Source of the DNA: an uncultured Bacilli bacterium
GTDB lineage: Bacteria > Bacillota_I > Bacilli_A > RF39 > UBA660
Reading direction: 5' to 3'
Assembly: GCA_944359595.1 (NCBI GenBank)
Contig: CALVSV010000015.1
Span: 1 to 12,311 of the forward strand
Length of the DNA: 12,311 nt
Part shown: piece by piece, positions 1,186 to 12,311 of the stretch
How positions within the stretch are numbered: position 1 is the stretch's first letter
Layout of the letters: each line of letters starts with the position of its first letter
Made by a program: the position numbers and the translations under genes
Notes under the pieces: generated by a model
Told to the model about the DNA's origin: nothing
Seen by the model: only the letters and a program-made list of their open reading frames with translations
Database searches by the model: none

Positions 1186-3228
1186 ATGAAAAAAAATAAA
1201 AAAATATTAATAATAAGTGGAGCGCTCATAGTTTTAATAGCGCTTTTAACAACTGTATTTGTAGTGCTTACTACACCCGATAAAAATACTACACTTACAG
1301 CGATAGAAAAAAGATATGTAACACAAAATAAAAATAATGTAATTAATATAGCAGTACCTAATGACATACCTGTATTTGGTTTCAATGGGGAAGGTGTGTT
1401 TTTTGATTTTATTGATGATTTTTCAGAAAATATAGGTTTAGAACTTAATAAAGTACCATATAATGCTTTTGATGAACCATCACTATATGATTATAAATTT
1501 GAAGTAGTTAATAGTGTTAAGAAAGATCAAATATTAGTATATCAAGATTATTATGTTGCTTTATCATTAGAACCTAATAGAATAAATAGTATAGATAAAT
1601 TGGAAAAATTAAATATTGGATGTTTAAGTAATCAAATGGATAATATAACTTATTATTTAGAGGGTATAGATGCAGCATTTATATCTAAAGAAAATGTTAC
1701 AGAATTGTTTGAAGGACTTGAAAAAAATGAATTTGATACAATAATATTACCATATATGATGTACATTAATAATATATTAGAGAAGAATTATAATATTATA
1801 TATAGTTTTAATGATTTAAAAGCTAATTATTGTTTGACAATGTCAAAAGATAATGAAACAGTTAATAAAATAATGAAAAAATATTATGAATTGTGGAGAA
1901 GTTCTAATTACATTGATTCATATAATCAAGCTTATAATTCACTTTATAATGATGTTAAAAATATAGATTCAAGAACACAAGCTAAATTAGTTGAAAAAGT
2001 ATATACTTATGGGTATGTAGATAATTTACCATATGAAAGTGTTGTAAATAAAAAGTTAGTGGGTATTAATGGTGAGTATTTAAATAATTTTATGAGACTT
2101 ACTAATACAGAATTTAAACTTAAAAAATATACATCAATAAGTGATCTTATAGAAGCTTTTGACAATAATGAAATAGATATGATGTTTAATAATTTTAGTA
2201 CAAATAATACATTATCTAATGCATATCAAACAACTTCTACATTTAAAGAAAATTATGTAGTTGTAACAAATATTTTAAATACACAAGTTATGGATTCTAT
2301 TAAAGCATTAAAGGGAAAAACTGTTTATTCGTTAGAAGATAGTGATTTATCAACATTTATTAAAGTTAATACTGAAGCTAATTTAAAAACATATAAAAAT
2401 TATAGTGTATTATTAAATAATTTAAAAGATGATATGTTGATAGTAATGGAAGAAGATGTTTATAATTATTATAAAAATAATGAATTAAGAAATTATTATA
2501 TTGTATATGAAGATGAGTTTGAAAATTCATATAACTTTATAATTAAAAATAATAATAGTAATAAAACATTGTTACAGATGTTTAATGATTTTATATCTAG
2601 TCAAAATTATGATTATGTTAAGATGAGCGCATATAAAAATATAGTTACTAATCCTAAAAATCAAACATTGTCTCAAACATTATTAAACTATATATTATTT
2701 GTTGTATTACCTATAATAATAGTTGTTACTATATTAAGTATTGTATTTAAGAAGAAAAAAGAAAAAAATATAATTAAAAAAGATGAAAAATTAAGATATG
2801 TTGATATGCTTACATCTCTTAAGAATAGAAATTATTTGAATGCGAACATAAGTGCATGGGATGAAGCTAAGATTTATCCACAAGCAATCATTATAATAGA
2901 TTTAAATAATATCAAATATATTAATGATAATTTTGGACATGAAGAAGGGGACAATGAAATTAAATTTGCTGCTAATGTACTTATTAAATCTCAACTAGAA
3001 AATAGTGAAATAATAAGAACAGATGGAAATGAATTTCTAATATACTTGATTGGTTATAAAGAAGATCAAATCATTAATTACATGAGAAAATTATATAAAG
3101 CCATGAAATCTTTACCACATGGATATGGGGCTGCTTTTGGTTATAGTATGATAGAAAATGATACTAAATTACTTGATGATGCAATTAACGAAGCAACACT
3201 TGATATGAGGAGTAATAAAGAATCTTAG
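1186..3228 (+). CDS. Transmembrane sensor: solute-binding-like outer region plus degenerate GGDEF domain
   Basis: A 680-aa protein in four parts. There is an N-terminal membrane segment (residues about 6-28) and a long external region (about 48-495). That region reads as two successive periplasmic-binding-like units of the SBP_bac_3 type, each opening like NVINIAVPNDIPVFGF and VYTYGYVDNLPYESVV. A second membrane segment follows (about 502-522), then a cytoplasmic GGDEF-type domain (about 536-680). GGDEF landmarks are the D-x-LT-x-L-x-NR motif at 540-548, the metal-site DLN at 572-574, GHEEGD, and the active-site loop. That loop reads DGNEF (613-617) in place of GGDEF. The third position normally supplies a metal ligand (Glu370 in PleD) but is Asn615 here, and the second Asp of the usual D-x-D is Asn574. 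Catalytic c-di-GMP synthesis is therefore doubtful; the domain may bind nucleotide or signal by contact. No EAL or HD-GYP domain is attached. It starts 13 nt after the upstream gene and its stop overlaps the next Shine-Dalgarno. The architecture is fairly sure; ligand and output are unknown. Confidence 0.88.
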   Translation: MKKNKKILIISGALIVLIALLTTVFVVLTTPDKNTTLTAIEKRYVTQNKNNVINIAVPNDIPVFGFNGEGVFFDFIDDFSENIGLELNKVPYNAFDEPSLYDYKFEVVNSVKKDQILVYQDYYVALSLEPNRINSIDKLEKLNIGCLSNQMDNITYYLEGIDAAFISKENVTELFEGLEKNEFDTIILPYMMYINNILEKNYNIIYSFNDLKANYCLTMSKDNETVNKIMKKYYELWRSSNYIDSYNQAYNSLYNDVKNIDSRTQAKLVEKVYTYGYVDNLPYESVVNKKLVGINGEYLNNFMRLTNTEFKLKKYTSISDLIEAFDNNEIDMMFNNFSTNNTLSNAYQTTSTFKENYVVVTNILNTQVMDSIKALKGKTVYSLEDSDLSTFIKVNTEANLKTYKNYSVLLNNLKDDMLIVMEEDVYNYYKNNELRNYYIVYEDEFENSYNFIIKNNNSNKTLLQMFNDFISSQNYDYVKMSAYKNIVTNPKNQTLSQTLLNYILFVVLPIIIVVTILSIVFKKKKEKNIIKKDEKLRYVDMLTSLKNRNYLNANISAWDEAKIYPQAIIIIDLNNIKYINDNFGHEEGDNEIKFAANVLIKSQLENSEIIRTDGNEFLIYLIGYKEDQIINYMRKLYKAMKSLPHGYGAAFGYSMIENDTKLLDDAINEATLDMRSNKES

Positions 3229-10537: not shown

Positions 10538-10567
10538 AAAAGACAAAATAAGCTTTGTCTTTTTTTT
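10536..10567 (+). terminator. Intrinsic terminator before spoIIGA
   Basis: AGACAAA (10541-10547) pairs with TTTGTCT (10554-10560) around ATAAGC. The A-run before it (10536-10540) can pair with the T-run after it (10561-10567), so it could also terminate minus-strand transcripts. It leaves only 11 nt before the spoIIGA Shine-Dalgarno, so any separate spoIIGA promoter must overlap it or lie inside the upstream gene. Confidence 0.85.
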
Positions 10568-10590
10568 ATACTATATTTGGTGATAAAATT

Positions 10591-11370
10591 ATGAAAATAT
10601 ATTTAGACTTAATATTATTACTTAATTTTTTTATGGATTTATTGCTTTTATTTACTGTTAGTATAATTTTAAAAAGAAATGTACGTATCATAAGACTTAT
10701 ATTAGGCGCGTTATTTGGAGCAAGTAGTATATTTTTACTATTTATAAATATAAATTCAATTACTCTTTTTATATTAAAATTTATAATAAGTTTAGTAATG
10801 TTATTAATTAGTTTTGGATATAAAGATATAAAATATATGGTAAGAAATATATTGTATTTATATGTAAGTAGTATTATACTTGGCGGTTTTTTATATTATC
10901 TTAATATAGAATTTAGTTATAAGAGTGAAGGAATAGTATTTTATCATAATGGATTAAGTGTTAATTATATTGTATTAATAGTATTATCACCTATAATTTT
11001 AACATTATATATAAGACAATCACTATATTTAAAGAATACATATTCTAAATATTATAAAATAGATATATATTTAAAAAATGGGAATATATTAAAATTTAAT
11101 TCATTTTTAGATACAGGAAACAAATTATATGATCCATATATGAAAAGACCAATATTATTAATAGATGGTAAAAATATTATTTATGACAAATATATATATG
11201 TACCATATTCATCTATTAATATGCACGGATTATTAAAATGTATTGTACCCAATAAAATATATATACATGGTATTGGGTATCGAACCAACTTACTTATTGG
11301 AATAAGTAACGAAAAAATAATGTTAGATGGAGTAGATGCAATTATGCATGAAGCTATATTGGAGGGATAA
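10591..11370 (+). CDS. spoIIGA: Sporulation sigma-E processing aspartyl peptidase SpoIIGA
   Basis: A 259-aa membrane protease, shorter than the 309-aa B. subtilis protein. Five hydrophobic segments (about 5-22, 35-52, 55-75, 86-105, 122-142) form the N-terminal membrane domain. A C-terminal aspartyl-protease-like domain follows, with the catalytic motif SFLDTGNKLYDPYMKRPILL at 171-190, where Asp174 is the expected catalytic residue. Later family features are YIYVPYSSIN (201-210), LKCIVP (215-220) and LLIGIS (234-239). SpoIIGA sits in the sporulation septum and cleaves the pro-sequence of sigma-E in the mother cell after activation by SpoIIR from the forespore. ATG 10591 is chosen because GGTGA (10579-10583) is well placed and the protein then begins with the typical short MKIYLDLI lead-in to helix 1. 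The in-frame TTG at 10555 lies inside the terminator. sigE starts one base after its stop codon. Confidence 0.95.
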   Translation: MKIYLDLILLLNFFMDLLLLFTVSIILKRNVRIIRLILGALFGASSIFLLFININSITLFILKFIISLVMLLISFGYKDIKYMVRNILYLYVSSIILGGFLYYLNIEFSYKSEGIVFYHNGLSVNYIVLIVLSPIILTLYIRQSLYLKNTYSKYYKIDIYLKNGNILKFNSFLDTGNKLYDPYMKRPILLIDGKNIIYDKYIYVPYSSINMHGLLKCIVPNKIYIHGIGYRTNLLIGISNEKIMLDGVDAIMHEAILEG

Positions 11371-11371
11371 T

Positions 11372-12064
11372 ATGTTAGAAAAAATAAAAAAGTTAATAAA
11401 TAAAATATTTATTAAAAAAAATGATTTGTTTTTCTTAGGTAGTAGTGATGCACTACCACCACCACTACCTAAAGAAGAGGAATATAAATTGATTATTGAA
11501 AAAGAAAACGGTAATATTGAGGCAAAAGAAAAATTAATTGAACATAATTTAAGATTAGTAGTATTCTTAGCTAAAAAGTATGAAAACACAAAAGTAGATT
11601 TAGAAGATTTAGTAAGTATTGGTAGCATTGGACTTATAAAGGGAATAGATACTTATAAACATGATAAAAATATTAAGTTGGCAACTTATGCATCACGCTG
11701 TATAGATAATGAAATATTAATGTATTTAAGAAAAAATAAAAGAAAGAAAAGTGAAGTTAGTTTTGAAGATTCACTAAGTTACGATAGCGAGGGTAATGAA
11801 CTTCATTTAGAAGATGTATTAGGAACTGATGCTGATATTGTTACTAAACCACTTGATGAAAAGGTCAATAGACATATAGTAAGAAATGAATTAGCTAAAT
11901 TAAATGACAGAGATAAAAAGATTATGATGTTAAGATATGGATTAGGTGGTACAAAAGAAATGACACAAAAGGAAGTAGCACAATTTTTAGGAATCAGCCA
12001 ATCATATATTTCTAGAATAGAAAAAAAAGTAATTAATAGACTTAAAAATATTGTAAAAAATTAA
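11372..12064 (+). CDS. sigE: RNA polymerase sporulation sigma factor sigma-E (pro-form)
   Basis: A 230-aa sigma-70-family factor of the sigma-E/K type (B. subtilis SigE has 239). Residues 1-20 form an amphipathic basic pro-sequence (MLEKIKKLINKIFIKKNDLF). Next comes FLGSSDALPPPLPKEEE (21-37), which matches the YIGGSEALPPPL start of mature B. subtilis sigma-E. By alignment, SpoIIGA should cut near F20/F21. Region 2 spans about 58-125 (HNLRLVVFLAKKY; DLEDLVSIGSIGLIKGIDTY; ATYASRCIDNEILMYLR) and region 4 about 172-227, with the helix-turn-helix KEVAQFLGISQSYISRIEKKV. It drives early mother-cell genes in sporulation. GGAGGG (11361-11366), inside the spoIIGA end, gives ATG 11372. Upstream in-frame codons from 11336 lie inside spoIIGA and lack this site. 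Adjacency to spoIIGA and the pro-sequence separate it from sigma-K and sigma-G. No clear intrinsic terminator follows. Confidence 0.96.
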   Translation: MLEKIKKLINKIFIKKNDLFFLGSSDALPPPLPKEEEYKLIIEKENGNIEAKEKLIEHNLRLVVFLAKKYENTKVDLEDLVSIGSIGLIKGIDTYKHDKNIKLATYASRCIDNEILMYLRKNKRKKSEVSFEDSLSYDSEGNELHLEDVLGTDADIVTKPLDEKVNRHIVRNELAKLNDRDKKIMMLRYGLGGTKEMTQKEVAQFLGISQSYISRIEKKVINRLKNIVKN

Positions 12065-12112
12065 ATATAACTATTGAACTAAATGTATAAAAATGTTAAT
12101 ATTTAACTGTAA

Positions 12113-12126
12113 GGTACAGCTGTACC
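12113..12126. promoter_or_regulatory. 14-bp perfect palindrome, possible operator
   Basis: GGTACAGCTGTACC is a perfect inverted repeat in otherwise AT-rich sequence. Its core TACAGCTGTA (12115-12124) fits TACA-nn-TGTA, the box known for CopY- and BlaI/MecI-type repressors. A further CTGTA at 12107-12111 could pair with the same TACAG in RNA. It lies between sigE and the structured leader. It has no U-tail on either strand, so it is not a terminator. It may be a DNA operator or a small RNA hairpin (GGUAC-AGCU-GUACC). Confidence 0.5.
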
Positions 12127-12131
12127 AAAAA

Positions 12132-12222
12132 TTATAAAACAAGCCCTCCCGGACGCAAACATATGTTCGGGGGGAGTTGAACTTTATAAAAACCTTTACT
12201 TGTTTTATAAATAGTAAAGGAG
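12132..12222 (+). ncRNA. Structured 5' leader, candidate translational RNA switch
   Basis: TTATAAAACAAG (12132-12143) pairs perfectly with CTTGTTTTATAA (12199-12210), a 12-bp closing helix. Inside is a GC-rich hairpin: CCTCCCG (12145-12151) with CGGGGGG (12168-12174, one G-U), a 6-nt bulge GACGCA, and a capping AAC-AUAU-GUU. CCTTTACT (12193-12200) also pairs perfectly with AGTAAAGG (12213-12220), which would hide part of the Shine-Dalgarno AAAGGAG (12216-12222). The 3' strand of the closing helix is the loop of this second hairpin, so the two compete or form a pseudoknot. A third option pairs TTTATAAAA (12183-12191) with TTTTATAAA (12203-12211). I do not recognise a known riboswitch class. 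Confidence 0.55.
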
Positions 12223-12230
12223 TTTTAATA

Positions 12231-12311
12231 ATGGAAGAGAAGAAAAACAAAAAACAAACAATAATTATAGTTATCGCAGTAATAGCTGTTATCGCACTAT
12301 TAATAGGAGCA
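12231..12311 (+). CDS. Start of a gene for a membrane-anchored or exported protein (partial, 3' end outside window)
   Basis: Twenty-seven codons are visible and the frame is open to the right edge. The product starts with a basic, hydrophilic head (MEEKKNKKQ) followed by a hydrophobic run of about 18 residues of Ile, Val, Ala and Leu. That fits a signal peptide or a single N-terminal membrane anchor. No Cys (lipobox) is reached before the window ends. AAAGGAG (12216-12222) is a strong Shine-Dalgarno 8 nt before the ATG, and it lies in the 3' arm of a hairpin in the structured leader. Function cannot be inferred from this fragment. Its start is well supported by the Shine-Dalgarno and the sensible N-terminus. 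Confidence 0.75.
   Translation, partial: MEEKKNKKQTIIIVIAVIAVIALLIGA

Follow-up and report, generated by a model that had tools for sequence, protein, structure and literature searches.

What does the structured leader at the 3' end of this stretch of DNA control, and by which mechanism? The stretch analyzed here (the window, 12,311 nt) is the whole of contig C15 of genome G000, whose 1.19 Mb are spread over 166 contigs; its 3' end falls within a repeated gene. Upstream of this gene, the sequence-only reading had proposed a translational riboswitch of a possibly new class. Our analysis retains the switch and leads to another view of its input. The reading that we favor, tentatively and with somewhat less than even confidence, is that of a doubly locked, SOS-inducible leader cassette placed on surface and pilin-like genes, the two locks being LexA and the masking of the Shine-Dalgarno (SD) sequence.

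All the features of the leader lie on the forward (+) strand. A −35-like hexamer, TTGAAC (12074-12079; found by eye, letters confirmed), stands 17 nt from the −10 hexamer, and from the extended −10, TGTTAATAT (12094-12102), transcription is predicted to start near 12109. A palindrome, GGTACAGCTGTACC (12113-12126), which is retained in part of the copies only, opens the leader on its 5' side. It is followed by the 5' strand of the anti-sequestor helix P1, TTATAAAACAAG (12132-12143), by a GC-rich hairpin identified by folding (12145-12174), which other copies have with altered sequence, and by the 3' strand of a local helix, P1' (12177-12189), with which the 5' strand of P1 can also pair, so that P1' and P1 are competitors. 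The tip of the hairpin is a LexA-operator-like palindrome, CAAACATATGTTCG (12156-12169), which matches the strict motif. Further downstream, the anti-SD strand CCTTTACT (12193-12200), defined by its letters and by the alignment of the copies, has positions 12199-12200 in common with the 3' strand of P1, CTTGTTTTATAA (12199-12210), the rest of which forms the loop of the SD hairpin. The segment AGTAAAGGAG (12213-12222, letters checked) comprises the 3' strand of the SD helix, AGTAAAGG (12213-12220), and the Shine-Dalgarno. The surface-protein gene starts with the ATG at 12231 (MEEKKNKKQTIIIVIAVIAVIALLIGA..., 12231-12311) and is truncated by the contig end; the same start in C153 runs on into a SipW-type signal (TIGR04088). 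Examination of the letters confirmed the three pairings previously proposed, i.e., a perfect 12-bp P1 helix (12132-12143 with 12199-12210), an SD hairpin (12193-12200 with 12213-12220) masking the GG of AAAGGAG (12216-12222), and a third, perfect pairing between 12183-12191 and 12203-12211. Besides, the hairpin contains an ATG (12163-12165 in the window, and likewise in the copies) followed by TTC and G-runs of about 6-8 residues, a length that varies among copies as judged by eye; in C144, again by eye, the frame of this ATG stays open into the gene that follows.

A folding energy of −32.4 kcal/mol (z = −3.60) was obtained for the 116-nt region, and 0 of 200 shuffles were as stable. In the minimum-energy fold, 12132-12142 pairs with 12177-12189 (P1') and the SD is masked, the hairpin being formed by 12145-12155 with 12164-12174 around an 8-nt loop. 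Since GACG is paired in this fold, the 6-nt GACGCA bulge that had been described within the hairpin belongs to an alternative register of the same hairpin; the hairpin itself is present. Forcing P1 freed the SD of the window copy in the folding at a cost of 5.5 kcal/mol, as illustrated by a probability of GG pairing of 0.98 in the free fold vs. 0.04 with P1 forced. When 16 copies were folded, five of them from class B, in which the flanks differ, this probability ranged from 0.66 to 0.99 in the free fold and from 0.02 to 0.46 with P1 forced, and it was lower in 16/16. To set these values against chance, the 84 nt preceding the 3' strand of the SD helix were dinucleotide-shuffled 500 times. Equally strong SD masking occurred in 140/500 and a perfect helix of at least 10 bp in 10/500, whereas masking of at least 0.95 combined with a competing helix that lowers it to 0.1 or less occurred in 0/500. 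Hence, SD masking alone is common and the two-state arrangement is uncommon. A point against the favored reading is that, in absolute terms, the SD of the class A leaders (accessibility 0.29-0.45) was not clearly less accessible than the SDs of seven other window genes (0.15-0.79), which have different letters.

The leader is not unique to this locus, a fact that could not be seen from the window alone, any more than the match between the hairpin tip and the recA box. A covariance model revealed 22 leader copies in the window's own genome; this model (R1), built from 14 copies, recovered five class B copies absent from its alignment (E 1e-6 to 4e-5). A DNA search returned 22 places, some of which are partial matches to the leader or are limited to the gene start, to which a core-pattern search added C38 and C65, and a GAACN4GTTC search C40. 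The cassette is about 90-115 nt long and many copies are more than 90% alike. We read it as lineage-specific, since the searches of other genomes described below did not extend it beyond one lineage. Variants of the leader were also noticed. A second leader type, ACTGGTAAAAATTACC ... GAAAGGAAGTTAA, occurs in L019, L020 and L016 (C21, C57 and C86), where it takes the place of the first type, either entirely or in its 3' half; in C21, pairing with the anti-SD strand is preserved. The palindrome ATGTAACCGGTTACAT follows two gene-less hairpin copies, L026 and L046 (C157 and the second copy in C66).

The pairing was compared only among the copies of one genome, themselves related by duplication, because the searches of relatives yielded no convincing copy. 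Within this set, the distal part of P1 is 10/10 paired in 14/14 aligned class-A-type copies, vs. 40-60% in slid controls. Covariation in P1 is modest: a single pair changed on both sides (C-G to U-A in C155b and C40), another pair includes a G-U, and 147/500 shuffles matched the observed number of pairs changed on both sides, the observed values on cells and on score being reached by 3/500. The strength of the case for P1 lies in a pairing that persists around a highly variable interior. Class B shows the same competition with different letters, its 5' strand GAGAAAAAAATA lying opposite TATTTTTTTCTC, which adjoins CTCCTTTAAAGGAG; uninterrupted P1 pairs number 12 in C43 and C38, 10 in C19, and 9 in C26 and C65. 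The SD helix is 8/8 paired in the close copies, including C155a (one G-U). In the alignment register it drops to 7/8 in C155b, 6/8 in C40 and 5/8 in C111; with another spacing, C111 reaches 8/9 with a U-A to A-U swap. The same kind of swap is found in C21, where the helix is 9/9 paired even though the 3' half has been replaced and the strands lie 76 nt apart. Taken with the folding, these copies support the proposal of a translational switch with competing helices.

No such support was obtained for a ligand. The bulge region, whose conservation as GACGCA the sequence-only reading had named as a sign in its favor, reads GGACGC, GGATGC, GGACAC, GAACAC, GAGCAC or GGATAC depending on the copy and is missing in C155b and C40; a conserved aptamer was not found. 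Neither did Rfam give a credible match to a known family, whether the whole window was searched at the gathering score or 12060-12311 at E values up to 10; a SAM-V riboswitch match was rejected (15.6 bits vs. a cut-off of 41). A c-di-GMP riboswitch, considered because of a GGDEF gene in the window, had no Rfam match, and an integron attC site was discarded as its end motifs do not fit. On present evidence, a ligand riboswitch is not supported. Elsewhere, the exact core pattern had 0 matches in GTDB r220 genomes and 0 in IMG/VR, collections from which the own or near genomes are possibly missing. A pattern scan of 193 family genomes gave the own genome, G027 and G073 only, and the latter two were rejected, one having no 5' arm and one being another hairpin. 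With stricter filters, the covariance model gave in the same 193 genomes the own genome and, among the 192 others, G086 (E 0.007), a weak match that was taken as chance. Of 22 loci of named relatives located by the sigma-factor gene, ten were searched with the model and gave a best E of 0.21; these relatives are metagenome assemblies labelled mostly Bacilli, and also Bacillota, Clostridia and Mollicutes.

What distinguishes the hairpin is its tip. The sequence CRAACN4GTTYG matches the LexA operator motif of Firmicutes, CGAACRNRYGTTYC, in line with the published lexA footprint TACGAACATATGTTCGTA (PMC2248561). Two points weigh against the operator: palindromes are half expected at hairpin tips, and the site lies downstream of the promoter. 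The strict motif occurs at 17 sites in the genome, vs. 1 for the reversed control, and 16 of these lie in leaders (11 class-A-type, 5 class B), the remaining one being directly upstream of recA, so that leaders and recA carry the same box motif. The genome encodes a LexA protein (PF01726 match above cut-off, G000:C113, E 8.9e-22), whose own gene has CGAAACATTGTTTG at the −35, with one mismatch to the strict motif. In relatives, the strict box was found at 9/12 lexA loci fetched, and also at the uvrA of one relative. The count of 17 is the highest of 98 family genomes, the next being 11 and 10, and in many of them strict sites are no more numerous than in their own control; among surface-gene homologues of relatives, the strict box was found in 0/29 loci. 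As the copies are related by duplication, the 16 leader boxes do not represent 16 independent events. Among divergent copies, the palindrome is the part that varies least; in C155b and C40, the flanks have changed and the box is perfect. The strict box is absent from 6/22 leaders: C111 and C155a have one mismatch each, and C86, C157, C72 and the second C66 copy lack an intact gene at the normal spacing, as judged by eye.

Regarding transcription, an extended or good −10 was found 39-56 nt before the box in 15/21 copies examined. The nearest candidate of C21 lies 35 nt before it, C12, C112 and C155a have weak candidates only, and no −10 was found in C157 and C72. Given this upstream −10 in most copies, the whole switch is likely transcribed in most of them. 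In the window, the TTGAAC/TGTTAATAT pair was not listed by a stricter promoter scan, and no intrinsic terminator was found in 11900-12311.

In most copies, the leader runs up to the start codon of a gene for a secreted surface protein. The genes of class A start MEEKKNKKQ or MEENKKKK, and two that are long enough (C14 and C153, the latter with a divergent leader of its own) encode the SipW-type signal (TIGR04088); a weak camelysin match was found among the class A genes carrying this signal. Class B genes (C19, C26, C38, C43 and C65) are read from second-type (class B) leaders, and C38, the only gene of this class that was scanned, encodes DUF285 and PARCEL repeats. The C40 product is a type IV prepilin-like protein (N_methyl), the C111 leader precedes a 611-aa protein with no Pfam match, and the C155a gene contains a stop. 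Since other paralogues (C131, C155:5.6 kb, C17, C117 and C51) are absent from the model's matches, the leader marks a subset of the gene family.

According to the reading that we favor, LexA would bind the palindrome as DNA, some 33-50 bp beyond the point where transcription is predicted to begin, and act as a roadblock to transcription until DNA damage removes it. The transcript would then adopt by default the fold that masks the SD, as indicated by the comparison of copies and by folding, and formation of P1 instead would free the SD. The leader could pass from the masked to the open state while it is being transcribed, when ribosomes load, or through a trans factor acting at the hairpin. 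A broader version, possible and yet rather doubtful, is that one palindrome is read twice, as LexA operator in the DNA and as stem of a translational switch in the RNA, in a cassette that has spread over the surface and pilin-like repertoire, giving each gene two locks and bringing the cell surface into the SOS response.

Three other explanations were weighed against this one. The competing helices present in 16/16 folded copies would equally fit a translational switch operating at the RNA level only, whose hairpin would respond to a small RNA, a protein or a ligand, with the likeness to LexA operators a by-product of a palindromic hairpin. Indeed, C155b, C155a, C72 and C153 retain the hairpin in altered sequence, and C72 and C153 have lost the box. 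However, the tip is conserved beyond what pairing demands, the perfect boxes of C155b and C40 standing between changed flanks, and outside the leaders the strict motif occurs once in the genome, at recA; without a conserved pocket or an Rfam match, we consider this explanation unlikely. Conversely, SOS control could be exerted on the DNA only, the RNA helices having been inherited through recent duplication without any role. Such an operator would account for the boxes of the 16 leaders, of recA and of the relatives' lexA loci, as well as for the high similarity of many copies and the frequency of SD masking in shuffled sequences. It fits poorly with a P1 that stays 10/10 despite its differing interior, with the same competition being written in other letters in class B, and with an SD helix re-formed in C21 after replacement of the 3' half, and we consider it decidedly unlikely.

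The cassette might also be a repeat or a small mobile element whose inverted ends are the P1 strands and which merely lies upstream of duplicated surface genes. In several copies, the similarity does end near the P1 strands, and four contigs (C66, C86, C157 and C72) have a copy and no gene at the usual distance, both observations being made by eye. Against this, an ATG stands at the leader end in 14/16 strict-box copies, the exceptions being C66 (no gene) and C43 (ATT), although the contigs of C155b and C65 stop after only 5 and 3 codons; moreover, C157 and C72 are the copies in which no −10 was found. Of the explanations considered, this one appears the least probable and is very unlikely.

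The closest known logic to the doubly locked leader is that of E. coli tisB, in which LexA-controlled transcription is combined with a structurally sequestered ribosome-binding site (RBS) (PMC7708055). Judging from sequence and folding, the present leader likewise has a sequestered RBS behind a LexA site. It differs in that the operator forms part of the hairpin that is transcribed, the leader is multi-copy, and the genes encode surface proteins: where readable, the downstream products are large surface proteins and not small toxic membrane peptides of the tisB type. tisB further depends on processing of its leader, on a standby site and on an antitoxin RNA. The present leader would work like tisB, yet not be a member of the tisB system. 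Its folding resembles that of translational riboswitches of the sequestor/anti-sequestor kind, with competing helices of which one masks the SD, and it departs from them by having no conserved ligand pocket, a single lineage in the searches made and no Rfam match. The box itself is like the Firmicutes LexA/SOS (Cheo) box in motif and footprint; here it lies downstream of the predicted start, unlike those of recA and lexA in the same genome, which are at the promoter. In the open papers searched, LexA/SOS control of camelysin was not found, nor a LexA regulon with Firmicutes pilin or surface proteins; a query for a LexA box in a hairpin leader with a Shine-Dalgarno yielded an integron review only, matches for roadblock by an operator were unrelated, and no LexA-box passage was found among those consulted in the dinQ paper (PMC3567139). 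So far as these open papers show, a comparable system is not in print. If the favored reading is true, a translational RNA switch would contain an SOS operator and have multiplied with it as a cassette, and DNA damage would alter the surface proteins of a small-genome lineage, the named relatives of which are metagenome assemblies.

The remainder of the window offers some further observations. Positions 10555-12064 encode SpoIIGA together with a sigma factor, the genome measuring 1.2 Mb. L171, the nearest named relative, has a different gene directly 3' of the sigma factor, and neither the leader nor the surface gene at this place. The protein encoded by 1186-3228 combines SBP_bac_3 and GGDEF domains. 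Finally, positions 1-201 are the 3' end of a gene from the same surface family (PVINLKSDILYTSGNGTKTSPYTI), so that both contig ends lie within repeated surface genes.
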